From Geobacillus thermocatenulatus (GTDB taxonomy: Bacteria; Bacillota; Bacilli; Bacillales; Anoxybacillaceae), in assembly GCF_002217655.1 (NCBI RefSeq), contig NZ_NEWK01000001.1, positions 382,001-446,000 of the forward strand: a DNA stretch of 64,000 nt. Reading direction: 5' to 3'. The notes beneath the pieces were generated by a model that was given only the letters and a program-made list of their open reading frames with translations, did not search any database and was not told where the DNA came from. Position 1 is the first letter of the stretch. Every line of letters starts with the position of its first letter. This document shows positions 12,879 through 49,312 of the stretch, piece by piece. Position numbers and translations under genes: made by a program.

Positions 12879-14218
12879 AACGGAGATGCTTCTGTCGTCT
12901 TCAAAACCGTGACCGTTCGGTTTTTCGCAATCCGCTCGATGACGGTGGCGCCCAACGAAGGTTCGGCAAACAGCGCCGCGTTCGCGGTTGTCACCTGTTT
13001 TTGCTGTCCTTGGCTGGGGATGGATTTGGCGACAACCGTCTCGTGCACCCAGCCGAGCGTTTTTCCATTGAGGGACACTTTATACCAAAGCGCCCCTGAC
13101 GCATCTTTGGCGCTTGACAGGCTGTTCAGTTTGGTTCCTTTTCTCAGTTGGGTGACGACTTTTGCTTTTAAAGATGGAGCTTGCCGCACATTGGCGACCG
13201 ACACGCTGACCGTCAGCGGCTGGCCTGAGATGCTGGACGTATCTGAGACACCGCTTGGAACCGAAATGGTTGATGACATCGTCAACACTTTTTCCGACAT
13301 CCATCCCCGGACATGTCCGAGATCAACGCGGTACCAAAGTTCCTGACCATTTGTGACGAACAAATCGATCACCTTGACAGATTGACCGCGTGACACTGTG
13401 GCGACGGCGCGGTAATGGATGCTCGCCCCGCGGCGAACCGGGGAGGACTGCACAACGTTCATGAATGTCGGTAAAAGTGTCGGAAGCTGTTTGGGTATGT
13501 AGATCTGTTCTGTTTTCACCCATCCTTTGACTCCCGCCCATTCCACACGCACATACCGTTCTCCAAGCGAATTGGTGAACTCGGCCATGATGGAGACCAC
13601 ATCGCCGTTTGACAATGTTTTCACGACCGGATAGGAAGGGGATGCCCCTTTGCGTATCGCGATGTCGTTGGCGGCGATGACCGCACGCTTTCCGACGAGC
13701 ATGGAAGGCGGCTGGTTGGAGAAGCGGTCCGCACGCGCCCAGCCGGTGACGCCACCGTACTCGATGAGGTACCACGTTTCACCATAGGCGTTTTGAAACT
13801 CGTCTATGACGTTCACTTGTTGGCCGGCGGGAATCGAACCAACGGCCCGATATGAATCGGTTGCCCCTCTTCTCAGCAACGAGTCTTGCTTGGCGAACAT
13901 TACGTTAGGGAAGGCGGCAGAGACATGTCCTTCAGAAAAGTCGTCTGCCCGCGCCCAGCCTATGATGCCCTTGTATTCGATGCGATACCACGTTTCGCCA
14001 GCAGCATTTTGGAACTTGTCGATGACCTTTACTTGTTGGCCGGCGGGAATCGAACCAACGGCCCGATATGAATCCGTCGCTCCTCTCCTCAGCAAAGCAT
14101 TATGCTCAGCGATCATAAGTGTCGGTGAGGATGAGGAAGGACTTCCATTGGCGGCCAAGGCGGCTGATGGCCATAGCGGGCAAGTCGCCAACAAGACGGA
14201 AAGAAGTGTTTTTTTCAA
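12879..14218 (-). pseudogene. 5' half of a split SH3-repeat cell wall amidase gene
   Basis: Signal peptide (MKKTLLSVLLA... to ALAANG), then five complete bacterial SH3 repeats and the first half of a sixth. Repeats 1 and 2 are almost identical, sharing RRGATDSYRAVGSIPAGQQV, also at DNA level. The coding sequence breaks off after TTEASP at 12879, where the 129-bp repeat begins; the apparent frame continues ~20 codons into the repeat. The missing half of the sixth SH3 repeat begins with FDWVQVASASGKTGW at 49312. Keeping one AACGGAGA copy joins the two in frame (1340 + 1096 bases = 812 codons). The fragment may still be secreted as a wall-binding protein without catalytic domain. Confidence 0.88.
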
Positions 14219-14412
14219 GGATTCGATCCCCCCTTTTTTCTCAAGTTTGCGTTTTCTATACTATCATAGCGAATTTTGCCGTTTTATCCAACCCGAATTC
14301 AGTCCTATTATGCAAAAAAATGAAAAGTTTTGTTGAAAAAGAGAGAAAAAAAGCGGAGGACATGATAGGGCGTGCTCTTTCATCATCATTGCGTGATATA
14401 CGCTGGAAATGG

Positions 14413-14445
14413 AAAAAGGCGCTCCATTGCGTTTGGGAGCACCTT
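14413..14445 (-). terminator. Rho-independent terminator of the LCP gene
   Basis: On the minus strand AAGGTGCTCC pairs with GGAGCGCCTT across a short loop and is followed by TTTTTCC. It lies 12-45 bases after the LCP stop codon. Confidence 0.6.
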
Positions 14446-14456
14446 CTTTGCGATCG

Positions 14457-15464
14457 TTAATTTTGGCTTTGTGTGGATGGTGAATCGCTGCGCGTGAGGG
14501 AGGCGTTGGACGTCTCGAGCGCTTGCTGCAGCGTTTCATTGATTGAGCTGACCGACTGCTCGTCGGGGATGTAGTAGTATACGCCGTTGATCGTTTCGTC
14601 GTATCCTTTCAAATGCAAATTTTCTACATCTGCGTTTTTCATTTTTTGATAGACATAGATGAACGACAACAAATCGGATGGAGGGATGTTCGTCCGCACA
14701 TGATCCCCTAAATCGGCGATGACGTCATCCAGCTTCGGCAGCGAGGTGATGGACGTGCTTTTGTCGATAATCGCGCGGATGACTTGTTTTTGCCGCTCGT
14801 TTCGGCCAAAGTCGCCTCGGGGGTCCGATTTTCTCATGCGCACATAGGCGAGTGCTTCGTTGCCGTTCAACTCTTGTTTGCCTTTATGGAACGTATGCCA
14901 TTTGAGCGAACCTGTCAGCTGGGCTCTGAATGTAAACGGAACATCCACCGTGACGCCGCCTAAGGAATCGACAATTTTTTCGAACCCTTCAAAATCCGTC
15001 GTCACGTAATAGTCGATCGGAACATCGATCAGCTCATTGACGGCCGCAATCGTCGATTGAATGCCGCCATGACTGTAGGAATGGGTGATTTTGTCTTTCC
15101 GCCCTTCGCTCGGGATGTAAACGCGCGTGTCGCGCGGAATGCTCAACAAATACACTTTGTTCGTCTTCGGATTGACGGTCAACAACATGACAACATCAGA
15201 TCGCCCTTCCTCATCGTGGTACTGGTTTTCCACTCCAACCAACAGCACGGTAAACGGATCTTTGCGCATTTCAATATTTCTTGCAGGCTTGCTTGATGGA
15301 TCAAGTTCTTGGTAAATTTTGTTTGTTGCCTGTTTTGTCTCGGAGTAAATATTGTAGCCAAAGGCGCCGACTCCCCCGAGCAAAAGAAGAAACACGAGCA
15401 AAAAGAATCGGCGGAGCCGCTTTTTTTTCTTCCGCTTTTTCACCGTTTTTCTTGTATGATTCAT
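14457..15464 (-). CDS. tagU: LytR-CpsA-Psr (LCP) family wall-polymer ligase
   Basis: 335 residues: a strongly basic cytoplasmic start, one membrane anchor (about 21-42), then the extracellular LCP domain. Hallmarks visible are LLVGVENQ, the RSDVVMLLTVNP start with its Arg/Asp pair, the SIPRDTRVYIP loop, DYYVTTDFEGF, and VRMRKSDPRGDFGRNERQ with the conserved Arg and Asp residues. LCP enzymes transfer wall teichoic acid or other undecaprenyl-linked polymers to peptidoglycan; here the SCWP is the probable substrate. The neighbour yvyE and the reconstructed neighbour degS give the same order as tagU-yvyE-degS in B. subtilis. The tail is Ser/Gln-rich. Confidence 0.9.
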   Translation of the reverse strand: MNHTRKTVKKRKKKKRLRRFFLLVFLLLLGGVGAFGYNIYSETKQATNKIYQELDPSSKPARNIEMRKDPFTVLLVGVENQYHDEEGRSDVVMLLTVNPKTNKVYLLSIPRDTRVYIPSEGRKDKITHSYSHGGIQSTIAAVNELIDVPIDYYVTTDFEGFEKIVDSLGGVTVDVPFTFRAQLTGSLKWHTFHKGKQELNGNEALAYVRMRKSDPRGDFGRNERQKQVIRAIIDKSTSITSLPKLDDVIADLGDHVRTNIPPSDLLSFIYVYQKMKNADVENLHLKGYDETINGVYYYIPDEQSVSSINETLQQALETSNASLTRSDSPSTQSQN

Positions 15465-15497
15465 CGTTTAACCCTTCTTTCCTTGTACGGTTTCGTT

Positions 15498-16139
15498 TCA
15501 GGAAGACGGAAGCAACCGCTCGGCATACTCCATTGCTCCCGCTTGAATGTCCGCCCTTCCGTTTGTCAGTTCGGTCATCCACTCGCCGAACGAAGACTGG
15601 CCGTCCTCGGGAACGAGAACGTCAAACGCAACGCGGTCGGCATATAGGATATTTTTAATCGTATATACGGAAGAGCGCAGCTCATTTTCCACCTTCCCAA
15701 GCCACGAATAGTCGATCGTGACATGCATGACGCGCATGAGCCGACGCTCGACGATGCCGGCGGCGTTCAGCCCCTCGGAGACGGCGCGGCTGTATGCACG
15801 CACCAGGCCGCCCGCACCGAGCTTGATGCCGCCGAAGTAGCGGGTGACAACGGCGACGGTGTCTTTCAATCCTTTTTTCTTCAGCACCTCAAGCATCGGC
15901 ACCCCTGCGGTGCCGCTCGGCTCGCCGTCATCGTTCGCTTTTTGGATTTGGTCATGCTCGCCGATCAAATAGGCGGAGCAGTTGTGAGTAGCGTCCCAAT
16001 GCTTCTTCTTGATTTGTTGAATAAAGGCGACGGCCTCTTCCTCGGTTTCGGCGCGATTGATATAGCAGATGAACCGTGATTTTTCGATCACGATCTCGCG
16101 TTCACCGTATCCTTTGACCGTGTAATATGTTTGCAACAA
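15498..16139 (-). CDS. yvyE: YigZ/IMPACT family protein YvyE
   Basis: About 213 residues in two domains. The N-terminal IMPACT/UPF0029 fold shows KSRFICYINRAETEEEA, the conserved NDDGEPSGTAG and RYFGGIKLGAGGLVRAYS. The C-terminal half is a ferredoxin-like domain of the YigZ type. Its role is unclear; homologues bind nucleic acid or act on translation. The start is uncertain: no good ATG has a ribosome site, and the TTG at 16139, 7 bases after GAGGTG, gives a natural N-terminus close to QTYYTVKG. In Bacillus it lies divergent to degS; here its upstream region ends at the 129-bp repeat instead. Confidence 0.9.
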   Translation of the reverse strand: MLQTYYTVKGYGEREIVIEKSRFICYINRAETEEEAVAFIQQIKKKHWDATHNCSAYLIGEHDQIQKANDDGEPSGTAGVPMLEVLKKKGLKDTVAVVTRYFGGIKLGAGGLVRAYSRAVSEGLNAAGIVERRLMRVMHVTIDYSWLGKVENELRSSVYTIKNILYADRVAFDVLVPEDGQSSFGEWMTELTNGRADIQAGAMEYAERLLPSS

Positions 16140-16319
16140 AGCAAAACACCTCAACATACAAAAAACGCGAAAACGGTTTAATGTTGTTCATTTTTTTTGC
16201 ATGAATGGCTAGCGCTCTACTCTCATTATGGTAAACTGAAAATAAAAGAGCAATAGATAGGGCATGCTTTTATTATTATAAATCGACAACTTTTTTCCTT
16301 CAAACAAATTTTGCTGGCG
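16140..16319. promoter_or_regulatory. Displaced yvyE upstream region, likely the old yvyE-degS intergenic spacer
   Basis: 180 bases of AT-rich noncoding DNA with promoter-like TATGGTAAACT. It ends in TTGCTGGCG (16311-16319), which recurs at 49573-49581, 49 bases upstream of the degS start. By reconstruction this was the spacer between the divergent yvyE and degS genes, so it may contain the original degS promoter. Confidence 0.6.
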
Positions 16320-16448
16320 GAGTCAGTCAAGACTTTGTGGAGAACATTTTTTCGGTTCACTACGGGTGTTGTCAATCACTAGTTAGCGAACCATTTTCAG
16401 GAATTGATATCGTAAGCGCTTTCGGACTCTCATCCCTCATCTTGAGAT
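16320..16448. repeat. 129-bp inverted repeat, right arm (IS end)
   Basis: Exact reverse complement of 12750-12878. The outer terminus GAGTCAGTC follows TTGCTGGCG directly. The inner edge at 16448 runs into a truncated TnpB gene, whereas the left arm runs into the DUF6431-type terminal repeat, so the two arms have different inner neighbours. Confidence 0.85.
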
Positions 16449-16454
16449 TGGCTG

Positions 16455-17405
16455 TTGAATCATCCCAAGCTGAATCAAGCGACGAGCAAATTATTTAAAG
16501 CGTTTTCGTCGCAGCGGTTTCCTTCCGCCGTCGTGAATCAGACGATTCGAGAAGTGAAGTCCCAAAAGAAAAATCAAAAGGCAAAGACATTTCAAAAACG
16601 ATGGTGTTGCTTCAACAACCAAAACTTAAAAATAGTAAAGAAGGGGGATTTCTATACGGTTTCCTTCCCCACGCTGGAGAAGCGAATCGGCGTGCCAGTG
16701 GTCACGCGCCCCTATCAAGAAGCGTGGCTGAATCGGCTGCTCGATGGAACCGCCAAACAAGGGGCCGCCAAGCTCTACAAAAAGAGAAAGAAATGGTACT
16801 TGGCGATCTCGATCACCTTTGAAGTCAAGCCGCGACACGAAACAAAGGTGATGGGGGTTGACGTTGGGCTTCGCTATATCGCCGTGGCCAGCGTGGGAAC
16901 GAAATCACGGTTTTTCAAAGGGAACCGATGCGCCTTTGTACGTCGACGATATGCGGCTTTGCGGCGAAGGCTGGGCCAAGCCAAGAAGCTCCAGATGATT
17001 CGCAAAATCGGCCGTAAAGAGTCCCGCTGGATGAAGGATCAAAATCACAAAATCAGCCGTCAAATCGTAAATTTTGCCCTCGCCAACGGTGTTGGCGTGA
17101 TTCGGATGGAAGAGTTGACAGGGATTCGGAAACGGGCAACATCGGCCAAAGAAGCGGGGCGAAGCCTTCATGCTTGGGCGTTCCATCAATTGCAAACGAT
17201 GATCGCCTATAAAGCGGAAATGGCGGGCATTCGCGTGGAGTGGGTGAATCCAACCTACACGAGCCAAGCGTGTAAATGTGGTCATCGGGAAAAGGGAAAT
17301 CGTCATGGCATCCACTTTCAGTGTAAAAAATGCGGATACACCATCCACGCCGACTTGAATGGCGCGATCAACATCGCCAAAGCGATTTCGGGCTTTGCCG
17401 TCTAA
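16455..17405 (+). pseudogene. TnpB (IS605-family OrfB), N-terminus missing
   Basis: 316 residues from a TTG that follows an in-frame stop. The frame begins abruptly with LNHPKLNQATSKLFKAF, without the roughly 50-60 N-terminal residues expected of TnpB. The RuvC-like nuclease core is intact: Asp in MGVDVGLRY, Glu in GVIRMEELTG, a CKCG...CKKCG zinc ribbon, and the last Asp in HADLNGAINIA. TnpB is an RNA-guided nuclease that promotes retention of IS200/IS605 elements. The 5' end was removed where the 129-bp repeat now lies, so function is doubtful. Confidence 0.85.
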
Positions 17406-17567
17406 CCTAGCGCACTGGTCACAGGTGCGCCGCCCATTGGGGTACATCCTAACCCGATGGGACGGGGTGATGGCACACCCTTGAAGCTTTTGCGTTGTCC
17501 GAACCAGAAATGGATGAGGACGCAAACGACCCAAGAATCCCACGCCTTTAGGCGTGTGGAGTGTCAA
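17406..17567 (+). ncRNA. IS605 right end with probable omega RNA scaffold
   Basis: Downstream of TnpB lies structured noncoding DNA ending in a hairpin (CCACGCC TTTA GGCGTGTGG) and AGTGTCAA, typical of the right end of Geobacillus IS605-group elements. In TnpB systems the omega RNA covers this region and its guide is the first ~16 bases past the element. Here that would be GATTCCGAACAGCTTG at 17568, which belongs to the interrupted amylopullulanase gene. Confidence 0.55.
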
Positions 17568-18705
17568 GATTCCGAACAGCTTGAACGGCTGGAACACAGG
17601 GGCCTGGGAGATGTCGCGCAACGGTGCGGTGACGCCCGATTGGCAATTTACCGTCGAGGTGCAGGAAGGGGAAACGATCACCTATAAGTATGTGAAAGGC
17701 GGATCGTGGGATCAAGAGGGGTTGGCCGACCATACGCGTGAGGACGACAACGATGATGACGTGAGCTACTACGGCTATGGGGCGATTGGCACCGACTTGA
17801 AAGTGACGGTCCACAATGAAGGAAACAATACGATGATTGTGCAAGACCGAATTTTGCGCTGGATCGATATGCCGGTCGTCATCGAAGAGGTGCAAAAACA
17901 AGGGAGTCAAGTGACGATCAAGGGCAATGCCATTAAAAACGGTGTTTTGACGATCAATGGCGAGCGGGTGCCGATTGATGGCCGGATGGCATTCTCGTAC
18001 ACGTTTACGCCGGCCAGCCATCAAAAAGAAGTGTCGATTCATATTGAACCATCGGCTGAAAGCAAAACAGCCATTTTCAACAACGACGGCGGAGCGATTG
18101 CGAAAAACACGAAAGATTATGTGCTGAATTTAGAAACGAAGCAATTGCGCGAAGGGAAGTTGACAACGCCGCCAAGCAACGGCGATTCTCCGGAAAGCGA
18201 TTGGCCGGGCAGCGAAACGCCGTCCCATGACGGAGGGGCAACGCCAGGCAACGGCACCTCTCCGGGCAGCGGTGGTCCATCGGATGGCACATCCCCTGGG
18301 GGGAGCGTTCCGCCGGGCGGCACAGCTCCTCCGGGAAACGGAGCGCCTCCATCAGCACCGCCGCAAAAACCGTCTCCATCGAAACCAAAAGAGAAACCGA
18401 GAAAGCCAACCACTCCTCCAAGCCAAGTGAAAAAAGTCTACTGGGATGGCGTGGAGTTGAAAAAAGGGCAAATCGGCCGCTTGACAGTGCAAAAGCCGAT
18501 CAATCTATGGAAACGGGCGAAGGATGGGCGCCTTGTGTTCGTCCGCATCTTACAGCCTGGGGAGGTGTACCGCGTCTACGGGTATGACGCGCGCTTCGGC
18601 GGGCAGTACGCGGTCGGCGGCGGGTATTACGTGACCGACATCGACACGCACATCCGCTACGAAACGCCGTCGAAGGAGAAGTTGAAGTTGGTGAATGGGG
18701 AGTAA
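17568..18705 (+). pseudogene. 3' fragment of an amylopullulanase-type gene
   Basis: The frame enters directly from the IS605 end, so everything upstream (signal peptide and catalytic domains) is missing. What remains: a starch-binding-type domain (SLNGWNTGAWEMSRNG, GETITYKYVKGGSW), an Ig-like spacer, a long Gly/Pro/Ser linker (about residues 205-285), and a C-terminal ~85-residue surface module starting VYWDGVELKKGQIGRLTV and ending YETPSKEKLKLVN. This order matches the C-terminal region of the large secreted Geobacillus amylopullulanase, from memory. A GTG at 17554 could start a cytoplasmic remnant but no signal sequence exists. The same end module occurs in three proteins just downstream. 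Confidence 0.8.
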
Positions 18706-18750
18706 GCAAGAAAGCGAGACTGTCCGAATCAATAGGGCAGACTCGCTTTT
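18637..18750. repeat. 114-bp direct repeat, copy 1 (gene end plus terminator)
   Basis: Covers the last ~23 codons of the amylopullulanase fragment and its terminator hairpin (AAGCGAGACTGTCC pairing with GGGCAGACTCGCTT, then T-run). It is repeated without difference at 20582-20695. The 1831 bases between the copies hold the AbiE genes and were probably inserted or looped in here. Confidence 0.9.
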
Positions 18751-18918
18751 ATATGTGAAAATAACGGCAGGAATTTTACTTATGGTCGGCATATAATAAT
18801 AAGTGAATGCATTAAGGTGAAAAAAGAGGGATATGGTGAGTAATCGAGAATAAGTATATTAAACGTTTGCAATGAGTGATAAATGCCGACGTTTAGATGA
18901 AAAGAGTGGTGATCATGA

Positions 18919-19527
18919 ATGAATAAAGAAGTAAGCAAAATCATAAAAGATATTTTTATGCGTCAAAAAGGATTTGCGAAGACAGAAGACTTAACCAGAG
19001 AAGGAGTGAGCAAATATTATATTCGAAAGTTCGAGCAAAATGGAGAAATCATTAGGATCAAACGTGGGCTGTACCGTTATGCTGCATTTGAAAGTGATCA
19101 AAATGAAGAAGTGATTGAAGTATCAAAAGTGATCCCGAATGGCGTTCTTTGTCTTTTGTCGGCATTGTCTTTTTATGAGTTAACCACTTATAACCCGTGG
19201 GAGTACCAAATTGCTATTGAAAGAAAATCAAGGAAACCCCGTTTGCCCGATTATCCGCCAATTAAAATTTTCTATTTTTCAAAAAAACAGTTTGAATATG
19301 GAATTGAAGAAGTGGAAATAGGCGGCCATAAAATAAGCATTTATAATCGTGAAAAAACGATTTGCGACATTATTCGATACAGAGAAAAAATAGGAATCGA
19401 TTTAATGAAAGAAGGTTTGCGAAATTATTTACAAAGTTCTGAAAAAAATATAAGCAAACTGGTGGAATGTGCTGAGAAAATGCGCATCAAGACGGTTTTA
19501 TTAAAATACTTAGAGGTGCTTTTATAA
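18919..19527 (+). CDS. AbiEi-type antitoxin / transcriptional regulator
   Basis: 202 residues. The N-terminal winged-helix part reads GFAKTEDLTREGVSKYYIRKFEQNGEIIRIKRGLYRY, the classic AbiEi_4 pattern. The C-terminal domain includes ICDIIRYREKIG and the helical end seen in type IV antitoxins that repress their own operon and neutralise the AbiEii nucleotidyltransferase. The start ATG at 18919 is preceded only by a weak GTGGTGAT site. The stop overlaps the next start by one base (TAATG). AT-rich codon use differs from the flanking genes, so acquisition by transfer is likely. It appears intact. Confidence 0.85.
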   Translation: MNKEVSKIIKDIFMRQKGFAKTEDLTREGVSKYYIRKFEQNGEIIRIKRGLYRYAAFESDQNEEVIEVSKVIPNGVLCLLSALSFYELTTYNPWEYQIAIERKSRKPRLPDYPPIKIFYFSKKQFEYGIEEVEIGGHKISIYNREKTICDIIRYREKIGIDLMKEGLRNYLQSSEKNISKLVECAEKMRIKTVLLKYLEVLL

Positions 19528-20349
19528 TGGGAAATGTTAAAAATATACCTGCTTCAGTTGGAGAAAGACTAAAGAATATTGCCAAACAAAGTGGAAAAAC
19601 CTTTGATTTCATTTTACTGTTGTATTTTCAAGAAAGGTTGCTATACCGACTTTCCATTTCTAATTATCGGGATAAATTTGTTCTAAAAGGCGGTCTCTTT
19701 TTATTTTCCTTAACACAATTTCAATCTAGGCCAACCAAAGATATTGACTTTTTAGCTAGACAAATTTCAAATGATATTCAATATATCAAAACTGCGTTTG
19801 AGTCCATTTGTACGTTAACTGCTGAAGAAGATGGAGTCGAATTTAATGTAAAGGGCATTACGGCTGAACGAATTAAGGAGGGTGCTGATTATGAAGGAAT
19901 TCGTATTAAAATTCCGGCAGCACTTGGCAAAATAAAAAAGCAATTGCAACTGGATATTGGATTTGGTGATGTCGTGATCCTAAAACCACAAGAGATGCAG
20001 TATCCTACTTTACTTTATTAAATATGAAGCCCCCGGAAATTCGAGTCTACTCCACTTATTCAGTAATAGCTGAAAACGCGTCTTATGGGAAGCCATATTT
20101 GAAACCTTTCAAAGACGTCGAACGAATTTAGAAAAAGAACATCCTGTGTTTTCACCTTCTTTCGCAGAAGATGAGAGCCGAAACAAACAGTGGAAGGCAT
20201 TTTTGCAAAGAACGGGTATAAAAGAAGATCTACAGTTTCCCTTCGTCATGGAGAAAATTCGAGATTTTCTTTTTCCTGTATATGAATCAATTTTAAAAGA
20301 AAATGAATATTGGAAAATGTGGAATAGCCGGGCTCTTAAATGGGAGTAA
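19527..20349 (+). pseudogene. AbiEii-type toxin, frameshifted and internally deleted
   Basis: The first 164 codons give the start of an AbiEii nucleotidyltransferase: FVLKGGLFLFSL and RPTKDIDFLA carry the G-G and D-x-D active-site region. The frame stops at about 20021. The next piece (PPEIRVYSTYSVIAE) is in another frame, and the following piece (LWEAIFETFQRRRTNLEK to the end at 20349) in a third. The central part between these pieces is shortened by an estimated 40-60 codons. The nucleotidyltransferase is therefore probably dead while its antitoxin survives, a common decay path for such pairs. Confidence 0.8.
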
Positions 20350-20581
20350 CGAAGAAGACAACAGCTCAAAAATTAGAAAAGCATAGGGTAGACTACATGA
20401 ATTGAGCAGTAATATTTGAGAGCCTGACAAAAACGAGACAAGAAAAACTGGCTGACGGTGATCAACGTGTACCGCTTTTTCAGCGGTACGACGAATTCAT
20501 TCGCGACGAGGTCATGGGGATTGGCTGGCCGCTGATTGGCAATTTGGACGGCATAAGCAAAGATGAACGGACAACGTGTAA
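20350..20581. other. Remnant DNA between the AbiE pair and repeat copy 2
   Basis: 232 bases without an intact gene. One plus-strand frame gives a phrase with VPLFQRYDEFIRDE and GIGWPLIGNLDGISKDE, which looks like a broken coding sequence from a larger protein. I cannot name the family. It ends exactly at the duplicated 114-bp segment. Confidence 0.4.
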
Positions 20582-20695
20582 GACATCGACACGCACATCC
20601 GCTACGAAACGCCGTCGAAGGAGAAGTTGAAGTTGGTGAATGGGGAGTAAGCAAGAAAGCGAGACTGTCCGAATCAATAGGGCAGACTCGCTTTT
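20582..20695. repeat. 114-bp direct repeat, copy 2 (bidirectional terminator)
   Basis: Identical to 18637-18750. Its hairpin lies 7 bases beyond the stop of the convergent minus-strand gene at 20702 and so may also end that transcript. The upstream part is a useless copy of the amylopullulanase 3' end. Confidence 0.9.
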
Positions 20696-20701
20696 TGCAC
20701 G

Positions 20702-21445
20702 TTATTGTGCACTCGTGATCGTAACCGCCAACCCGTCTGCATCATAGGAAAGGGCAATCACAAGGCCGTCTTTGTGGAAGGCGAGTGCAGGCGGGTAGCC
20801 TTGGGTAGAATCGGACTGTTCATACTTGTTTCCAAATAGCGTGATGAGCTGTTGTTTCAGATTGTTGTAAATCGCTGTGAGCTGATCGTTTGTATACTCC
20901 TTTCCGGCATCGAACGAGTAGCCGTAGAAGGCCAGCTTTCCGTTCTCAAATCCATAGACGAGCAGCGTATCGTATCCAAAAAGAGAAGTCGAATAGACCC
21001 AGGCTTGGCCGCCGTCTATATTTTCTTGTAGGATCAATTTTGCGGTTTCCAACTTCTTGACTTGAGAAGCGGACATGCCGAGCTTGACTCCGCGGAACAG
21101 TTGCTCCATTTTGACTTGATTGAGTTTGGCTTTGGACGGCGTTTCGTATTTTACCCGAGCATCGCGATCGACATAATATCCACCGCCCAGCCCTAACATG
21201 CCCGGTTTAAACGTGTAAATGCGGTACGTTCCGCCGGCTTTTAACGTTTTTATGTAAACTTTCTTCTCTCCTTGCAACTTATAAAGCTCGGTATCTTTTA
21301 AAACGGTCAACTTGCCGATCTGTCCCTGCACCAATTCCATGCCGTTCCACCAAACTTTTGCTTGCGCATCGTGGGCGTGAAACGGCGACAGAAGGATTCC
21401 GGCGCTTAGTGCTGAGACGGCTAGAAATTTTTTTATGATCTTCAT
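20702..21445 (-). CDS. Secreted protein with N-terminal surface module
   Basis: 247 residues: signal peptide (KKFLAVSALSAG to AHDAQA), then the shared ~85-residue module (VWWNGMELVQGQIGKLTV, a GGGYYV core, YETPSKAKLNQV), then a ~130-residue domain of alternating strands and helices (LFRGVKLGMSASQVKKLE, LLVYGFENGKLAFYGY) of a type seen in Bacillus secreted proteins of unknown role. The ATG at 21445 is 9 bases after GAGGAG. It is divergent from the CAP-domain gene at 21668. The module suggests a wall-associated location. Confidence 0.7.
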   Translation of the reverse strand: MKIIKKFLAVSALSAGILLSPFHAHDAQAKVWWNGMELVQGQIGKLTVLKDTELYKLQGEKKVYIKTLKAGGTYRIYTFKPGMLGLGGGYYVDRDARVKYETPSKAKLNQVKMEQLFRGVKLGMSASQVKKLETAKLILQENIDGGQAWVYSTSLFGYDTLLVYGFENGKLAFYGYSFDAGKEYTNDQLTAIYNNLKQQLITLFGNKYEQSDSTQGYPPALAFHKDGLVIALSYDADGLAVTITSAQ

Positions 21446-40785: not shown

Positions 40786-42174
40786 ATGTTGGACGTGTTG
40801 ATTGGGTTGATGGTTCTTGTCGCCTCTACCTTGATGTTTCGCTATGCAGCGGGGACGCTTTCCTTGACGGCGCCGAATCTCGTGTCGATTGTGTACTATT
40901 ACTCGTTCCTTCTGTCAAGCTTCATCGGTGCGTTGCTGATCGCCTTGGGGATGGACGATTACTACATGATTCGCAAGCTGTTTCGGCCCGAGGAATACCG
41001 GCAGATTGGATTTGCTGTCGTATGCTTTGTCATGATCGCGTTCCCGCTGTCGATGGTGATCGTTTCAAGGCTGTTGGGGTTTGAAGCGAGGCAGGAGTTT
41101 CGCGCCTATTTGCAAAAGCCACTTTCCCCGTTGGCCGGAGCGACGGGCAGCCAAGTGTTTTATGCGTTTTTGGCGCTGTCGCTGCTCAGTTTTGCCGCCA
41201 TTGCGTATATGATTTGGAAAACGCCGACGATTCCGGTGTTTGCGCTCTTGACAGGGACGGACGAGAGCTTGGCTGCCTTGCGTGTTGAGGCTTCGCGCCA
41301 TTTTGCTGGAAACGTGCTTGTTCGCAATATTTTTGCCATTACGCTCACGCCGCTTTTGTCGTTTATCGCTTATTTGTTTGTCGTGCTGACGAACGAGCTT
41401 CGATGGAAGCTTTTGTTTATTTGTCTGTTTGTCGGGGCGGTGTTCGTCAATGTGTATGATTTGGCCAAATCGCCGATTTTCTTTTATGTGATGATGTTTT
41501 TGCTGATTCGCATTTACATTGGAAAAACAAGACTGTCGGCGGCGAAATTGGCGTTGTATGGGGGAGTGGGGGCGGCGGTGCTCGTCGGCATGTACATCGT
41601 CATTCAAGGGGTTCAGGATGCCAAGACTTTTTTGTCTTACAACAAGGGTCCGATCGGCCGCATGATTTTGGCGCAAATCGCACCGATGTTTCTCCATTTG
41701 AATTTGTTCGGCGAAGCGCTGCCATTTCTTTATGGAAAAAGCTTGCCCTCGATTTTGACGGGATTGTTTGACGTCGAGAACATCCGCTCCGCCCGGCTCG
41801 TAATGGCGCATGTGTTCCCGGAGCGGATCGCAGACGGGACAGGGGGGGTTTTAAACACCCTTTTTGTCGCGGAGGCGTATGCGAACTTTGGTTATGTGGG
41901 AATCGTCATCGGCACGCTGTATGTCGGCATCGTGACGCAGCTGTTGTACATTGGGTTTCTGCGGCTGCCAAAAAATCCTTTGTGTTTAAGTTTGTTCGTT
42001 TATTTTTCCATGAACATCCCCCGCACGCTCGTCGGCGGGTTCACCGACTTTTTGTTCAATCCGACCTGGGTGCTGCTCGTGGCGTTGTTTGGCGGAATGG
42101 CGTTATGGCTGCGGGTGCAGGGGGATTTACGGGCATGGTTTGCAGCGAAAAGGCGAATCACGGATGAGGGATGA
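40786..42174 (+). CDS. Wzy-like polysaccharide polymerase
   Basis: 462 residues with about twelve membrane segments and a large extracytoplasmic loop in the second half (DVENIRSARLVMAHVFPERIADGTGGVLNT, interrupted here by no membrane stretch). The VLNTLFVAEAYANFGYVG phrase is typical of O-antigen polymerase-type proteins of Gram-positive clusters. It would join repeat units at the outer membrane leaflet. It is followed after 3 bases by a glycosyltransferase gene. Confidence 0.75.
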   Translation: MLDVLIGLMVLVASTLMFRYAAGTLSLTAPNLVSIVYYYSFLLSSFIGALLIALGMDDYYMIRKLFRPEEYRQIGFAVVCFVMIAFPLSMVIVSRLLGFEARQEFRAYLQKPLSPLAGATGSQVFYAFLALSLLSFAAIAYMIWKTPTIPVFALLTGTDESLAALRVEASRHFAGNVLVRNIFAITLTPLLSFIAYLFVVLTNELRWKLLFICLFVGAVFVNVYDLAKSPIFFYVMMFLLIRIYIGKTRLSAAKLALYGGVGAAVLVGMYIVIQGVQDAKTFLSYNKGPIGRMILAQIAPMFLHLNLFGEALPFLYGKSLPSILTGLFDVENIRSARLVMAHVFPERIADGTGGVLNTLFVAEAYANFGYVGIVIGTLYVGIVTQLLYIGFLRLPKNPLCLSLFVYFSMNIPRTLVGGFTDFLFNPTWVLLVALFGGMALWLRVQGDLRAWFAAKRRITDEG

Positions 42175-42177
42175 AGG

Positions 42178-43290
42178 ATGAAAACCGTGTTGATTTATTA
42201 CCCGTTTTCACTGGCCGCGGAACGAAACAGCGGATCAAAGCTGCGGCCGTATGAAATGCATCAAGCGTTTTTGCGCTGGGGAGCGAAAGAGGGAGTGGAC
42301 GTTCTTCTGATCGCCGGCACGTCAGCCGAGCGGGAGAAGCAATTTCAAGAGCTCCGCAGCCAAGGCAAGCTCGATGACGTCTGGTTTTGCTATATGGAAA
42401 ACCAGACGATTCCGCTTTGGCTCACGGACCCAGGGCACCGGCCGCAACGTCCGTTCGTCGACCGGGACGTTCTCCGCTACTTGAAAGCCCGCAATGTTCC
42501 GATCGGCGTCTTTTACCGCGATGTGTATTGGAAGTTCCCTGATTTGTATCCGCTCCGTGGTTGGAAAAAAGCGGTCATGCACATGATGTACCGTTGGGAA
42601 GAACGGTTTTACGAGCGGTACTGCGATGTCATCTTTTTGCCGAGCCTCGAAATGGGAACATACGTCGCGATCCGGCGTCCGATGGTTGATTTGCCGCCTG
42701 GGGGGAAACAAAAGCCACTGCAGCGGACTGAAGAGGCGAAACAGCCGCTGAATGCCATTTATGTTGGCGGCATCAACAATGCCGACTATGGGCTTCCGCT
42801 TCTGCTGGAAGCGATTCGCTTGGCCAATCGCCGCAAGCCGCTTGTTTCGCTCACCGTCGTCTGCCGAAAAGACGAGTACGAGCGACAGCCGCTTGCGGTG
42901 AAAGAAGAGCTTGCCGCCTTACAAGTGCGCGTCGAGCACGTCAGCGGCGAAGTGCTCGACCGTTTGTATGCGGAGATGGATTTCGCCTTCATCCCGCGGC
43001 GGAGGAGCGAATACAACGATTTTTCCGTCCCGGTTAAGCTCGTCGACTACCTGTCGAGCGGCTTGCCGATTGTCGCCACCGCTTGCCCGGCGCAAAAGCG
43101 GTTGATTGAAGCGGATGGGTACGGCGTCATTTGCGATGACACCCCCGCGTCGATGGCGGAAGCGATCGCCAAGATGGCTGACGTACTCGAGGAATGCCGC
43201 TCGCGCATTGCTCAGACGTTTATGGCGAAACATTCATGGGAAGCGAGAGTGGAAAAGGTGAAAGAGATGTTAGTGGGGGGCCTCCGATGA
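42178..43290 (+). CDS. Glycosyltransferase, GT4-like (GT-B fold)
   Basis: 370 residues, cytoplasmic. The N-terminal half reads YYPFSLAAERNSGSKLRPYEM; the C-terminal half has NAIYVGGINNADYGLPLLLEA and the sugar-nucleotide region DFSVPVKLVDYLSSGLPIVATACPAQK with the conserved acidic and Gly residues. It probably adds one sugar of the SCWP repeat unit. It overlaps the next gene by 4 bases (ATGA). Confidence 0.8.
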   Translation: MKTVLIYYPFSLAAERNSGSKLRPYEMHQAFLRWGAKEGVDVLLIAGTSAEREKQFQELRSQGKLDDVWFCYMENQTIPLWLTDPGHRPQRPFVDRDVLRYLKARNVPIGVFYRDVYWKFPDLYPLRGWKKAVMHMMYRWEERFYERYCDVIFLPSLEMGTYVAIRRPMVDLPPGGKQKPLQRTEEAKQPLNAIYVGGINNADYGLPLLLEAIRLANRRKPLVSLTVVCRKDEYERQPLAVKEELAALQVRVEHVSGEVLDRLYAEMDFAFIPRRRSEYNDFSVPVKLVDYLSSGLPIVATACPAQKRLIEADGYGVICDDTPASMAEAIAKMADVLEECRSRIAQTFMAKHSWEARVEKVKEMLVGGLR

Positions 43291-44369
43291 AAATCGCCTT
43301 ATTGGCTCCAAGCAAATCGATCCATACGCATAAGTGGGCCCGCTTTTACCAAACGCAAGGCATTGATGTGAAAGTCGTCACGTTCAAAGACCATTACGGG
43401 CCGGAACAAGCGAAAGAAGTCGAGACGGTCGTGCTGCCGAAATGGCTGCCGGGGAAGTTGTCGTATTTTTCCACGGTGTTTTCGTTAAAGCGGCTGCTCG
43501 CCTCGTTTCAGCCCGATATTTTGCATGCCCATTACGCCTCAAGCTATGGGTTGATCGGGGCGCTTGCGGGGTACCACCCGTTTTACGTCTCCGTCTGGGG
43601 GCGCGACGTGTACCAGTTTCCAAACGCCAACCGCTGGAACCGGCGGATGCTGGAATATACGTTGCGGAAAGCTGATGTCATTTGTTCGACAAGCTATGTG
43701 ATGGCGGAAGAAACCGGGAAGTACACGGACAAGCCGATTGAGGTGACGCCGTTTGGGGTTGATGTCGCCCGCTTCAAACCGTTGCCGAAACAGCCGAAGC
43801 GGACCGTGACGATCGGCACGGTGAAAGCTCTTTCCGACAAGTACGGGATCGCCGATTTGATCCGGGCGTTCGCCATTGTGCACGAGCGTCATCCGCAAAC
43901 GGAGCTGTTGATCGTCGGCGACGGGCCGCAGCGGAGTGAATACGAGGAGCTGTGCGCCCGACTCGGCATCCAATCGGTGACGACGTTTGCCGGCAAAGTC
44001 CCGAACGAACAAGTGCCGCTGTATATCAATCAAATGGATATTTTCTCCGTGCCTTCGACGGAAGACAGCGAAAGTTTCGGCGTTGCCGCCGTCGAGGCGA
44101 TGGCGTGCGGCGTTCCCGTTGTCGTGTCCAACGTCGGCGGACTGCCGGAAGTCGTCCGTGAAGGAACGACGGGGTTGATTGTGCCGAAAAACAGTCCGGA
44201 AAAGCTCGCGGAGGCGTTCGAACAGCTGCTGCTTGATGGAGAGCGAAGGCGGCGAATGGGAGAGAACGGCGTCAACCATGTCCATGAACATTATGATTGG
44301 ACGGAAAATGCGATGCGCATGATCCGATTGTATGAACAAACGTTGAAAGGCGGTGGAGGGAGTCGATGA
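43287..44369 (+). CDS. Glycosyltransferase family 4
   Basis: 360 residues; the ATG at 43287 overlaps the preceding stop, which rules out the longer frame. GT-B fold: KIALLAPSKSIHTHKWARF, DILHAHYASSYGLIG, and the C-terminal SVPSTEDSESFGVAAVEAMACGVPVV (EX7E motif), interrupted only by normal loops, and NVGGLPEVV. It retains or transfers sugars from UDP/GDP donors onto the lipid-linked SCWP intermediate. Confidence 0.88.
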   Translation: MKIALLAPSKSIHTHKWARFYQTQGIDVKVVTFKDHYGPEQAKEVETVVLPKWLPGKLSYFSTVFSLKRLLASFQPDILHAHYASSYGLIGALAGYHPFYVSVWGRDVYQFPNANRWNRRMLEYTLRKADVICSTSYVMAEETGKYTDKPIEVTPFGVDVARFKPLPKQPKRTVTIGTVKALSDKYGIADLIRAFAIVHERHPQTELLIVGDGPQRSEYEELCARLGIQSVTTFAGKVPNEQVPLYINQMDIFSVPSTEDSESFGVAAVEAMACGVPVVVSNVGGLPEVVREGTTGLIVPKNSPEKLAEAFEQLLLDGERRRRMGENGVNHVHEHYDWTENAMRMIRLYEQTLKGGGGSR

Positions 44370-44628
44370 GGAACAAAGCCGTCATGTCAGCCGCCGCGGT
44401 TGGGGCTCGTTTGTTGCCAAAAGCGGAGGCGAAGTCACGAAGCCGGCGGCTTTCTGTTGGCCAGTTCATGATGGCTGTCAGTTCGCGGCAACGATTATCC
44501 ATCCAAGGACAGCGGGATGATGCCAGGGGGGCGTTTCCCTTTTTCCACGCCTCGGTTGCGATCGCCTCTTGGTGCTCGACACGGAACATACGTTTGCGGT
44601 TTTTTGGAAAAGTGGTGTGGAGCGGACC
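44370..44628. other. 259-bp spacer inside the glycosyltransferase operon
   Basis: It is unusually long for this tight operon. An open frame from 44366 overlaps the previous stop and could encode 88 residues, but its composition (Arg/Ala/Ser-rich, no domain) looks like noncoding DNA. It may be a relic of a deleted gene. No promoter or terminator is evident. Confidence 0.4.
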
Positions 44629-45885
44629 ATGAGGATCATTTACTTATGCCAACACTTCCCGCCGGAAACAGGTGCGCCGCAAATTCGTGTGTATGAGGTG
44701 AGCAAAGAGCTGATCAAACGGGGGCATGAAGTGGAAGTACTGACGGCATTCCCGCATCATCCGCACGGCGTCATCCCCAAGCCATACCGCGGCCTGTTTT
44801 ATTTGTTCGAACAATGGGACGGCATTCCCGTTCATCGAACATGGATTTATCCGTCGCCAAAGGGGAGCTTTTGGAAACGGCTCGCTTCGTATTTTTCGTT
44901 TACGTTCAGCTCGTTTTATTCGCTGCTTGTGAAAGCGAAGCCGACGGATGTGATCATTTGCAATTCCCCGCCGTTGTTTTTAGGGATCACCGGGTACGTG
45001 GGAGCGAAGTTGAAACGGGCGAAGTTTGTTTTCAACGTCGCCGACATTTGGCCGGAATCGGCCGTGGAGCTCGGCATTTTGAAAAATCGGCTGTTCATTC
45101 GAATGGCGAGATGGCTCGAGCTGTTTTTATACCGGAAGGCGTGGAAAATCGCCGCCGCGACGGAAGGCATTCGCGATTATATGATTGCGCAAGGGAAGGC
45201 GCCTGAGGATGTCTTTTTATTGCCGAACGGCGTCAACACGGATGTGTTTCGCCCGTTGCCAAAAAGCAAGGAGTTGCTTGCGAAATTAGGGCTCGAAGGA
45301 AAAGTCGTCTTTACGTACGCCGGAACGATGGGATATGCCCAAGGGCTCGATTCGGTGCTGCGGGCGGCGGCCCTCGTCAAAGCGAAAGACGAGCGGGCGC
45401 ATTTCCTGTTTGTCGGCGACGGCCAAGAGCGGGAAAAGCTGATGGCGCTGAAAGAAGAGCTCGGCCTTGACAACGTGACGTTTTACGGATCCGTTCCGGT
45501 TGAGAAGATGCCGGAGATTTTCTCCATCACCGATTACAGCATCGTTTCGTTGCGCAACATCGACTTGTTTAAAGGAGCAAGGCCGTCGAAAATTTTCCCG
45601 GCGATCGCCACCGGAACCCCGGTGCTGTATTGCGGCGAAGGGGAGAGCGCAGAGATTTTAGAAACATACCATTGCGGAAAAATCGCTCCTCCCGAAAATC
45701 CCGAACAGATCGCCGCGGCGGTTCTCGAGTTGCTTTGCCTTCCGAGAGAGGAATACGAAACGATGGCGGCAAATGGACGCAAGTTGGCGGTGGAGCAATA
45801 CTCATGGATTCGCATTGTTGACGATTTGCTTCACGCCCTTGGCGATGAAACGAAACGTGAATCGGTCAGATGGACAGAAAAATAG
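44629..45885 (+). CDS. Glycosyltransferase family 4 (WbuB-like)
   Basis: 418 residues; GGAG lies before the ATG at 44629, and the upstream part of the open frame is not needed. N-terminus MRIIYLCQHFPPETGAPQIRV broken by no gap, NVADIWPESAVELGIL in the middle, LPNGVNTDVF, and FKGARPSKIFPAIATGTPVLYCGEGE. This is the WbuB/WcaI-like branch that often uses N-acetyl-aminosugars such as FucNAc or ManNAc-type donors. It ends the polymer operon before a strong terminator. Confidence 0.85.
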   Translation: MRIIYLCQHFPPETGAPQIRVYEVSKELIKRGHEVEVLTAFPHHPHGVIPKPYRGLFYLFEQWDGIPVHRTWIYPSPKGSFWKRLASYFSFTFSSFYSLLVKAKPTDVIICNSPPLFLGITGYVGAKLKRAKFVFNVADIWPESAVELGILKNRLFIRMARWLELFLYRKAWKIAAATEGIRDYMIAQGKAPEDVFLLPNGVNTDVFRPLPKSKELLAKLGLEGKVVFTYAGTMGYAQGLDSVLRAAALVKAKDERAHFLFVGDGQEREKLMALKEELGLDNVTFYGSVPVEKMPEIFSITDYSIVSLRNIDLFKGARPSKIFPAIATGTPVLYCGEGESAEILETYHCGKIAPPENPEQIAAAVLELLCLPREEYETMAANGRKLAVEQYSWIRIVDDLLHALGDETKRESVRWTEK

Positions 45886-45892
45886 AATGAAG

Positions 45893-45929
45893 AAAGGGCG
45901 TTCCGTTCACAAAGAAGGACGCCCTTTTT
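45893..45929 (+). terminator. Terminator of the SCWP operon
   Basis: AAAGGGCGTTC and GGACGCCCTTT pair around a 15-base loop, followed by a T-run. It lies directly after the last glycosyltransferase gene and before the convergent SpoIID/LytB gene. Confidence 0.8.
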
Positions 45930-45986
45930 GTTTCCGCCATGTCGAGATGGAGAGCAAAACCCCGTATGACATCATGGACTCTGTCA

Positions 45987-47318
45987 CTAGAACGAGACTT
46001 GAGCGCCGGGGAAGTAGTGTTCTAAAATTTGTTCTGCCGTCCATCCACGCTCGGCGAATGCCTTCGCTCCGTATTGGCTCATGCCGATTCGGTGCCCCCA
46101 GCCTTTTCCCGTGACGGTGATCGAGCTGATCCCTGACGGCGAGGCGGAAAGCGGCATGATGCCATCCGTTGTTTGCACGTTGATTCCTTCGACGCCGGCG
46201 AGCGAAACCGTTCCGTTCTCGGTTTGGACGGAATAAGATGACAAGGAAGAGGCGGCGACGCGCCCATTAGTCGTTTGAATCGACACGGATGGACCGCTTT
46301 TTTGCACTTGAATGTCAAACCAGTTGGACGGCAAGATGCCGTAAAATTGATTGCTGTCCAGCGGGAACAGCTTGCGGATGGTTGTTTCATTGCCTTTCAC
46401 TGTTTTGGCACCGGCCGAGGTTTCAATCGTGACAGCCCCCACTTCCCCGTTCGCGCCGGTTTTGGCGATCGAGACGTCGTATAACACAACCGATGGATCG
46501 GTGATGCCGAACGACCGCAGCAGCACAGACGGGGAGAAGGTGAACGACCAACGGCTGTACGGCGATGATTCATATGGGTCATCGACGCTCGCCAAATATG
46601 GGTAGGCGGTTTGCGACGAGTTCCAGACGTCGCTTACGTTGGCGGTTCTGCCGCCGCTTGTCGAGTGGTAATACGTTTCAATGACACTGCCATTATATTT
46701 AAGATACAATCCCCTTGTCGCATCCACTGCCTCGTTCGATCGAGAAGATTCTCCATCATATCCTTTGTACGTCTGTGTGTTTGGATTGGTCGTCAAACTT
46801 GTTTTATGTTTATAGGCATAGTTTCGGGCGGCAATGGCTTGCGCCTTCAGCGCCTCAAGCGGCCAAGAGGCCGGCATCTCGCTCGGCACGACGCCTTTTA
46901 AATAATCCTCCATCTCTAAAAGATTGACAGCGTACAAGGCGCCATTTTGCAGACGAATGTCAACGCTTCCCCGATACCGAGTTTGGTTCACCTTGACAAG
47001 GGACAACGGCGCCGCGCCGATCGTTTCCTGAATGGCAAATCCAGAACTCGAAACATCCGTCTTTCCGTTGTACGTGGCCAATACGTTCGAAGAGGAAGAA
47101 CGAAATGTCAAAGTTGTCCCGCTCGGCAACGGGGTGATCGTCAGCGTCTCTTTATTGAAAATTTGGTAATTCCCTTCAACGGCGACGGTCACAGATGTCC
47201 CTTTATATAAAAGGACTTGCACAGGATTGTTGTACGTTTTCACCCCAGCGGCGTTCGAGGCGGAAGGAGAGACGATGAGCCAAAACAGGCCGACGGCCAA
47301 CCACGCTAGTTTTTTCAC
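45987..47318 (-). CDS. SpoIID/LytB-domain secreted protein
   Basis: 443 residues with a signal peptide (KKLAWLAVGLFWLIV to SNAAG). The SpoIID/LytB core spans about 110-300: YAVNLLEMEDYLKGVVPSEMP, LEALKAQAIAARNYA, GYDGESSRSNEAVDAT, YYHSTSGGRT and DVWNSS. A later block ends GWGHRIGMSQYGAKAFAERG. SpoIID is a lytic transglycosylase for denuded glycan; LytB (CwbA) stimulates the LytC amidase. Because it is 3 bases from an SH3 protein gene and near the amidase fragment, it looks like the LytB partner of that amidase. Confidence 0.88.
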   Translation of the reverse strand: MKKLAWLAVGLFWLIVSPSASNAAGVKTYNNPVQVLLYKGTSVTVAVEGNYQIFNKETLTITPLPSGTTLTFRSSSSNVLATYNGKTDVSSSGFAIQETIGAAPLSLVKVNQTRYRGSVDIRLQNGALYAVNLLEMEDYLKGVVPSEMPASWPLEALKAQAIAARNYAYKHKTSLTTNPNTQTYKGYDGESSRSNEAVDATRGLYLKYNGSVIETYYHSTSGGRTANVSDVWNSSQTAYPYLASVDDPYESSPYSRWSFTFSPSVLLRSFGITDPSVVLYDVSIAKTGANGEVGAVTIETSAGAKTVKGNETTIRKLFPLDSNQFYGILPSNWFDIQVQKSGPSVSIQTTNGRVAASSLSSYSVQTENGTVSLAGVEGINVQTTDGIMPLSASPSGISSITVTGKGWGHRIGMSQYGAKAFAERGWTAEQILEHYFPGAQVSF

Positions 47319-47321
47319 CGT

Positions 47322-47999
47322 CTACTTCACCTCACCAAATTCAGCGGCCATCCAACCCCGCCGCCCATCAGACAGCTGCACGTTGTACCATTTCTCTCCT
47401 TTGTTGTTGGTAAACGGCTGGATATAGACCATCTCTGTTCCTTTTGGAACGGTCGCAATAATCGGATAAGCAGTCGTCGCTCCTTTTCGAATATTGACCG
47501 CGGCGGTGGCGATGACGTGCTTGGTGCTGTCGCTGCTGACAGCGGATGTCGAGACATCTCCTGAATGGATCCATCCTTTCAGCGATGAAGATAGGACGAC
47601 GTTGTACCACAGTCCTTGGGAAGTAAGGTGCGCCCCGACGACTTGCAGTGAAGCCCCTGCCTGTTTATAAGTGATGACGCGGTAGCTCGTTGACGCTCCG
47701 CTGCGGACGGCCGCATTGTTTTTCGCTACATAGACGACAGAAGGCAAAGAAGGCGAAGCGGGTTTGCTGGCAAGTTGTTGTTGAAGCTGCTGAATTTGTT
47801 GTTGCTGGGCGGCCAGTTGTGCTTTCAAGTTGGCAATGTCGTTTTTCATCGGGTTGAGCTGGGATGTCACCCAGTCGACGCTCGCTAACACGACTTCTTC
47901 CGATGCTTTCATCGCCGATGGCGTAAACAAGAGGGCGCCTGCCGTCATTCCGACCGCCAGGCTGGCAGCAACGGCCCATTTGGCTTTTCGTTTCATCAT
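47322..47999 (-). CDS. Membrane-anchored coiled-coil protein with two SH3b domains
   Basis: About 225 residues. Signal-anchor (AVAASLAVGMTAGALLF), a coiled coil (about 58-88) rich in Gln, then SH3b domains at about 93-150 (NNAAVRSGASTSYRVITY) and 160-225 (AVNIRKGATTAYPIIATVPKG, ending GWMAAEF). GGGGGAG favours the second of the ATGs near 48005. Such SH3b domains bind peptidoglycan peptides. It lies upstream of the SpoIID/LytB gene and probably shares its transcript. Confidence 0.8.
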   Translation of the reverse strand: MMKRKAKWAVAASLAVGMTAGALLFTPSAMKASEEVVLASVDWVTSQLNPMKNDIANLKAQLAAQQQQIQQLQQQLASKPASPSLPSVVYVAKNNAAVRSGASTSYRVITYKQAGASLQVVGAHLTSQGLWYNVVLSSSLKGWIHSGDVSTSAVSSDSTKHVIATAAVNIRKGATTAYPIIATVPKGTEMVYIQPFTNNKGEKWYNVQLSDGRRGWMAAEFGEVK

Positions 48000-48050
48000 G
48001 TTCATCTCCCCCGTTTTTGGATATGGAAAGAAAGGAGAATAATAGCTTTC

Positions 48051-48187
48051 CTAAAAGGCCGGTGAAACACAACGGATTCGCTCGGTTCATGGGGAATCGC
48101 AAGGAATGAAAACGCGATGTTGCCGTGTTTCTCAGTTTGAGAAACACCATTGCCAAAGCTTTATATCCGTTGCATCATCGGCCTTCT
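48051..48187. repeat. Diverged copy of the 140-bp inverted-terminus element
   Basis: CTAAAAGGCCGGTGA at the left and ATCGGCCTTCTCA near 48187 are imperfect versions of the termini at 25118-25257. The interior TCTCAGTTTGAGAAAC resembles TCTATTTGAGA there. It fills most of the gap between the SH3 protein gene and the amidase fragment. Confidence 0.45.
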
Positions 48188-48216
48188 CATGCTATTATTC
48201 TCCGAATGCGAACAAA

Positions 48217-49312
48217 CTAGAATTGGTTGAAATACTCTTCCAATCCTTCACGAATGCCAACGGCTGCTTTTTGGCGGAACGCTTTCGTTTTGAGCAGCGC
48301 CTCTTCATTCGGATTGGAGATGAAGGCGAGCTCAACGAGAATGCTCGGCAGCTCATTTTTCCGGTTGACGTAAAAGTCTTGTGTTTTATGGCCGCGGTCA
48401 TATGTTCCGAGTTGTTGGACAAGATGTTTTTGCACAATGGCGGCCAACTGCTCGCTTTTTGGCCCATTGAAGTTGCTCGATACGTTGTAGTACGTCGTCG
48501 TTCCGCGAGATGTCCGCGAGTACGAGTCGGCGTGAATGCTGATAAAGGCGTCGTAGTCCGAGCTGTTGGCGATCCACGTCCGTTCCGACAGCTCCAAAAA
48601 GATATCGGTGCTTCGTGTCAATTTCACGATCGCTCCGGCCCGCTCCAATTCTTCTTTTACCAATAAGGCGGTGTCGAGCGTAATATCTTTTTCCCGCGTG
48701 CCGCCAGGGCCGATCGCCCCCGTGTCGTGCGCCCCGTGCCCTGCGTCAATGATGATTTTTTTGCCCTTAAGTCCGGTCTCGAGAATTTTCAGCGCCAATC
48801 GGTCGCTGTAATGGCGAAGGGTGAACGTGTACCCCGGTTCAAGGGTGATGAGCAGGCTGCTGCCCGTCCACTCCACAGTTTGTATGCCTGGAATGTCGGT
48901 CGACGGGACTTCAGCGTAGGAAAACGAGCCGGTGATTTTCAGACGATTGCCCGGCAACAACGAATAGGAGACGCGGAAATTAGAAGTTTTTTTCCACGTC
49001 AAATAGGCATCTTCGTTGATGGTCGAAAACGTCGGTTCAACGAGACTATTTAAGGCGACGGTAGAGGTGCTCGATTCCTCCACCCATCCGCGGACGCCAT
49101 TGGATGTTTCGACATTCAGCCAGCCATGATATTCATAAAGAACAGCAAGCCGTTCATTCGCTGCCAGCGTCTTCAGCGATTGATAGTTTGAAGAGGCGCC
49201 TCGGCGCAGCGGAGCGCCCGCCTGTTTGACGTATACGTAGGATGGAGCGTTGACTTCAAAGGCCGGCATCCATCCTGTTTTCCCCGATGCAGATGCGACT
49301 TGCACCCAGTCG
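48217..49312 (-). pseudogene. 3' half of the split N-acetylmuramoyl-L-alanine amidase gene
   Basis: Begins inside the sixth SH3 repeat (FDWVQVASASGKTGWMPAFEV), then a seventh SH3 repeat (LRRGASSNYQSLKTLAANE), an AMIN-like beta domain, and Amidase_3. The zinc ligands and catalytic Glu are present: IIIDAGHGAHDTGA, GTREKDITLD, ISIHADSYS and LVELAFISN. The 5' half, with signal peptide and five more SH3 repeats, is at 12879-14218. The apparent start within the palindrome (49434) gives no signal peptide, so the enzyme is unlikely to be exported. In the ancestor it would be an 811-residue LytC-like autolysin. Confidence 0.9.

Follow-up and report, generated by a model that had tools for sequence, protein, structure and literature searches.

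An ISLre2-interrupted amidase gene in a Geobacillus thermocatenulatus assembly, with its front half most probably misplaced by a contig-joining error

The SH3-repeat N-acetylmuramoyl-L-alanine amidases of Geobacillus (Amidase_3 type) are encoded by one open frame of 748-830 codons in 8 of the 13 other genomes of the genus sampled here; in the remaining five no close match to this gene was found, only distant amidases. The insertion sequences of the ISLre2 family that occur in Geobacillus, for instance ISGka4, are described as being flanked by 9-bp direct repeats (PMC8024623). The closest technical parallel is provided by de Bruijn assemblies of the SPAdes type, in which contigs end where repeats have collapsed; the largest word length (k) of SPAdes is 127 (PMC5481147). 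When their contigs are joined without gaps, such assemblies keep k bases of the repeat as a stub at each join, lose 16S rRNA genes to stubs, lack the interiors of insertion sequences and place neighbors sometimes rightly and sometimes wrongly. The locus described here differs from the amidases of its relatives in that the gene is interrupted and its two halves lie 34 kb apart in the assembly. It is proposed, at a probability of about 0.96 and from sequence comparison, that a contig-joining error and not biology explains this arrangement: the amidase gene would have been interrupted by an ISLre2 element, and its front half would have been misplaced among short-read contigs.

The window analyzed is a stretch of 64,000 nucleotides (C1:382001-446000) of an assembly that comprises 3,563,800 bases in two contigs (C1 and C2) and is rated 100% complete. 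Both parts of the amidase gene lie on the minus strand, the N-terminal half (N-half) running from 14218 to 12879 and the C-terminal half (C-half) from 49318 to 48217; the features of the locus are collected in Table 1. The preliminary description of this DNA had proposed that these are halves of a single gene, each bearing AACGGAGA at its edge, and this was confirmed: when one copy of AACGGAGA is kept, 1340 and 1096 bases are joined into 812 codons including the stop, and the frame reads without a stop through TTEASPFDWVQVAS to the C-terminus. The Amidase_3 domain (PF01520, 178 bits) is found in the C-half and SH3_3 repeats (PF08239) in both halves, with five such stretches in the N-half, which is broken off within a repeat; three more matches to the amidase domain exist elsewhere in the genome. 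The alignment to other Geobacillus amidases that had been suggested as a check showed the joined protein to be 88.8-96.2% identical to the whole genes of the eight relatives and ungapped across the junction in all of them, and therefore the halves are parts of one gene. The residues of the joined protein that are missing in G003 (72) and G001 (74) lie elsewhere than at the junction. The opposite notion, that two ancestrally separate genes have edges alike by chance, is close to one of the cases named as capable of refuting the proposal; it is contradicted by these single, junction-free frames and can be discarded.

Table 1. Features of the two amidase parts and their borders (window coordinates; R and P, the two ends of the ISLre2 element)
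Feature	Position	Strand	Remarks
End of repeated element 'Q', 127 bp	12625..12751	+	abuts ISLre2 end; putative end of left-hand contig
ISLre2 end R, 127 bp	12752..12878	-	tip at 12878; putative left end of misplaced contig
AACGGAGA, 8-bp target duplication copy	12879..12886		N-half side; single copy in relatives
Amidase, N-terminal part	12879..14218	-	start region and SH3_3 repeats
LytR-CpsA-Psr (LCP) family gene	14457..15464	-	PF03816; on putative misplaced contig
UPF0029/DUF1949 gene	15498..16157	-	PF01205 and PF09186; presumably yvyE-like; on putative misplaced contig
TTGCTGGCG, 9-bp target duplication, second ISLre2 copy	16311..16319		yvyE side
ISLre2 end R, 127 bp	16320..16446	+	putative right end of misplaced contig
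tnpB, IS200/IS605-type, 5' truncated by join	16447..17568	+	NF040570; putative start of next contig
Amidase, C-terminal part	48217..49320	-	partial SH3, SH3_3, Amidase_3 (PF01520); beside ancestral downstream neighbors
AACGGAGA, 8-bp target duplication copy	49313..49320		C-half side
ISLre2 end P, 127 bp	49321..49447	+	putative end of C-half contig
ISLre2 end P, 125 bp (with TT of duplication, 127)	49448..49572	-	putative end of degS contig
TTGCTGGCG, 9-bp target duplication, second ISLre2 copy	49573..49581		degS side

The borders of the two parts carry repeats that the preliminary description had missed, namely a perfect inverted repeat of 129 bp flanking the block of the N-half (12750-12878 and 16320-16448), a perfect palindrome with arms of 126 bp beside the C-half (49320-49573), and, as a further direct-repeat pair, two copies of TTGCTGGCG (16311-16319 and 49573-49581). 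The repeats at the segment borders represent both ends (R and P) of an ISLre2-family insertion sequence. Its transposase is represented by the interior frames of the loci L035 and L039, which match PF06782 at 142.9 and 156.3 bits (cut-off 24.3); the best NCBIfam model for these frames, which are partial, is NF033529, with 95.9 and 89.7 bits, under the cut-off of 200. The likeness to described elements is drawn at the level of the family: the transposase belongs to the same PF06782/NF033529 family, 9-bp direct repeats are present in seven of the eight copies with both flanks identified, and a length of about 1.7 kb, as in ISLre2-family elements of Geobacillus, is seen in most end pairs listed for the relatives. 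The copy in the amidase gene, with its 8-bp repeat, differs in this respect.

The arrangement in the relatives was obtained from 19 kb around the gene in each of the eight genomes carrying it whole, and the order is the same in all eight: degS and the next gene (which we take to be degU) lead into the stretch equivalent to 16319-12879, and this leads into the sequence from 49320 downwards. The former stretch contains the yvyE-like gene, the LCP gene and the N-half, contiguous with the C-half, and the latter contains the C-half, an SH3 gene and a SpoIID/LytB gene and goes on to about 40 kb. On the degS side, adjacent alignments have 9 bp in common in all eight relatives, which corresponds to TTGCTGGCG in the window; at the amidase site, the overlap amounts to 8 bp in seven and to 9 bp in L076, which corresponds to AACGGAGA. 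These overlaps indicate that each target site is present once in the relatives, and that the window has two insertion sites with duplicated targets; the empty-site string itself was displayed for six of the eight, that is, all except L076 and L080. The insertion with an 8-bp target duplication that had been proposed is thus supported, with ISLre2 ends at both edges and an empty site in the eight relatives. AACGGAGA occurs five times in the window against a shuffle mean of 2.4, and the 8-mer alone is weak evidence; the pair becomes convincing because both copies directly adjoin the tip of one and the same insertion sequence and because the relatives have the site only once.

In comparison with the relatives, only the 3,441-bp segment between the two insertion sites is out of place. 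Alignments in the same order, interspersed with insertions and repeats, extend as far as 17568, where the tnpB element has its right edge, in four of the eight (G006, G009, G010 and G011); in G012 they extend to about 18.4 kb, and G001, G003 and G013 were covered up to an earlier point, at which the retrieved sequence or the contig ended. From 16447 onwards, the alignment falls inside a tnpB that continues upstream in L079. The possibility that broken-off counterparts of tnpB or of the adjacent region lie elsewhere in the genome was considered and dropped: the tnpB start region has six other matching places in the genome, none of them a complementary stump for 16447, and a 6.2-kb stretch that adjoins 17568 in G009 (with a frame that we read as an alpha-amylase) has no match in this genome beyond 214 bp within the window.

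These data bear directly on the course of events first envisaged, in which one insertion with a target duplication was followed by later events separating the halves over 34 kb. The duplication and the insertion are real; however, after simple insertion into a gene on the minus strand, the N-half should have higher coordinates than the C-half, and the window shows the opposite, with the C-half 34 kb higher. Halves on the same strand in such an outside-in order are not the product of an insertion. Moreover, the C-half is unmoved relative to degS and its downstream genes, only the short segment with the N-half being displaced, and the borders of this segment coincide with cuts 127 bp inside the element. 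The proposed physical separation therefore found no support, and this course of events is judged to have hardly any chance of being correct.

The nature of these cuts is apparent from the remaining copies. Sixteen ISLre2 ends are present in the genome at 100% identity, and in 15 of them (seven R and eight P) the natural interior is missing, the end stopping after 124-128 bases. When the bases of the target duplication that are common to another copy are counted toward 127, 14 of the 15 cuts fall exactly at a position allowed for k = 127, including the ends of 124, 125 and 126 bases, whose flanks share three, two and one bases; the fifteenth is cut one base over, and the piece adjoining it happens to start with that base. 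That the cut shifts with bases shared by chance at unrelated sites argues for an assembly graph of word length 127 and not for a biological process. At their inner edges, the ends are joined to diverse partners: R ends adjoin a P end, the end of another element, the middle of a tnpB or an amidohydrolase-like gene, and P ends adjoin an R end, a second P end or other DNA. Eight copies have a matching duplication on both sides, the halves being abutting in four and apart in four, and one of the latter pairs is split over the two contigs.

Two of the separated pairs deserve mention in their own right. The end stubs at C1:255030 and C2:227546 share the 9-bp duplication ATAATAATG; the R stub continues, probably through another wrong join, directly into a gene whose translation reads like an amidohydrolase. 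The ends at C1:1517243 and C1:1534624 have the same duplication, AAAGTCGAT, and lie 17 kb apart. The R end at C1:1534624, which is one of the 16 identical ends, keeps a partial interior, is fused to a different frame and fits the overall picture less neatly.

In the 13 relatives, the R-P pairs among the matches listed (counted by eye; G011 has at least 40 matches) comprise 37 at 1.5-1.6 kb and four at 0.4-0.8 kb, and none with abutting ends; among the listed matches, abutting R and P ends at full identity occur in this assembly only. A full-length ISLre2 copy with identical ends was not found in the assembly, as is expected if such copies were collapsed and left out. In an old, diverged copy at C2:1643495-1643719 (75% across the two ends), the ends lie almost directly side by side, and hence real short derivatives can exist. 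The abutting R-P unit of 254 bp, in contrast to a stable MITE-like family with a fixed center, has a center that varies with its flanks. A mobile short R-P element with a central cleavage site, perhaps acted upon by a TnpB-type nuclease or by transposase excision with imprecise end joining, fitted the first data; it was dropped because no such element appears among the matches listed for the relatives, 16S genes are missing and the variants of the center follow the rule of the flanks. A composite element of the form R-block-R with a 2-bp AT target duplication was likewise rejected, the AT being better read as a chance coincidence at two contig joins.

The missing ribosomal genes come from outside the locus and concern the assembly as a whole. 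No match to 16S (SSU) rRNA was obtained in this assembly despite its rating of 100% complete, whereas four of the relatives gave nine (G007), seven (G009), eight (G011) and four (G012). No DNA match falls inside the 16S gene, and the eight places that reach into it are all stubs, consisting of gene starts that break off 68-126 bases from GGAGAG: at 124 in four, at 126 in two, and at 105 and 68 in one each. The four 124-base stubs, together with the TTT that precedes GGAGAG, give 127, and one copy differs in front of this TTT; the other four fit less neatly. The stub in L165 is followed, about 230 bases past its break, by a 5S gene. An Rfam search covering seven of the eight stub loci (all but L171) detected an LSU fragment in L167 only and 5S genes in L165, L167, L168 and L172; the sequence following the stubs of L165, L169 and L172 is presumably the 3' end of the 23S gene. 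Any unusual junction in this genome should consequently be suspected of being a contig join.

A real rearrangement must be weighed against these observations. It could be imagined that the 3.4-kb segment was cut at the centers of two inverted short ISLre2-derived elements and reinserted 33 kb away, the donor site being healed as a palindrome; the target duplications agree, there is no doubt about the ancestral order, and the R ends lie with the segment and the P ends at the donor. However, at least four separate elements would have had to break cleanly at the very same position and be fused to unrelated partners, and the cut shifts by 1-3 bp according to the bases that the flanks share by chance, as it does in an assembly graph. 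Similar stubs are found in rRNA genes, and such short elements are absent from the matches listed for the 13 relatives, so that a rearrangement of this kind appears very improbable. A process specific to the strain, in which ISLre2 would be cut at the inner edges of its ends of about 127 bp, the transposase removed and the ends rejoined, sometimes to wrong partners, thereby moving half of an autolysin gene, is given still less credence.

These observations are best explained by a contig-joining error. In the living genome, the order would most likely be degS, ISLre2, yvyE-like gene, LCP gene, N-half, ISLre2, C-half, SH3 gene and SpoIID/LytB gene, with two full-length ISLre2 copies of about 1.7 kb, in opposite orientations, flanking the 3.4-kb segment and one of them interrupting the amidase. 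A short-read assembly would have been blocked at these identical copies and, being unable to cross them, would have ended its contigs 127 bp inside the element. In a later step, the contigs would have been laid end to end, gap-free, so that the degS contig was joined to the C-half contig (P to P), whereas the 3,695-bp contig with the N-half was set at a distance of about 33 kb, where it came to lie between two further contig ends. As the window contains no gap letters (N), the joining step must have dropped the gaps. The three joins that create the separation (12751/12752, 16446/16447 and 49447/49448) bear the signature of contig-to-contig joins at k = 127. The block 12752-16446 (3,695 bases, with the front half, the LCP gene and the yvyE-like gene) is best read as one wrongly placed contig, the two P ends at 49321..49447 and 49448..49572 would together form a false perfect palindrome, and the distance of 34 kb between the halves is almost certainly to be ascribed to the assembly. 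An assembly error was the alternative already named in the preliminary description, and the evidence for it lies within the assembly itself. As in gap-free assemblies at k = 127, k-base ends shortened by shared flank bases are accompanied by rRNA genes reduced to stubs; in the present case, the type of assembler and the joining program were deduced from the sequence. Against this reading counts the 8-bp duplication in the amidase, given the 9 bp of the other seven paired copies and the published value for the family.

What would remain as true biology is modest, namely one amidase gene interrupted by ISLre2. The two insertions, in the amidase (8-bp repeat) and between degS and the yvyE-like gene (9-bp repeat), are considered real, that in the amidase as far as the contigs show. 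The loss of the amidase, and thus of an autolysin, may fairly be supposed from the insertion, since the C-half would be without the N-terminal region that precedes the SH3 repeats. In more general terms, a two-contig genome rated '100% complete' can be a gapless chain of short-read contigs, which is an ordinary but useful warning, as joins at insertion sequences then look like genes split in two, perfect palindromes, mobile elements of small size or segments that have moved. A test that needs no reads is available: repeat stubs of one common length (here 127) together with rRNA genes that survive only as stubs.

To the left of the locus, window positions 8300-12560 have a low G+C content (about 32-34%) and contain an ABC transporter, a response regulator and a sensor kinase; this region matches a plasmid of Parageobacillus thermoglucosidasius (NZ_AP025622.1) at 85% identity over 97% and may be a contig of plasmid or accessory origin that was set into the chromosome. 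The sequence of the 'Q' end recurs elsewhere in the genome, two of these places sharing one interior. The repeated element with the tip TGTAAATTATC runs into its interior at 1739-1868 and is cut at 127 bp at 12625-12751. Finally, an element of about 170 bp with inverted ends (CCTGAATCCGTGA and TCACGGATTCAGG) is present in two copies, at 1523-1692 and 2645-2814, the first 125 bp of which are identical, with one mismatch after them, and it looks like a real short mobile element.
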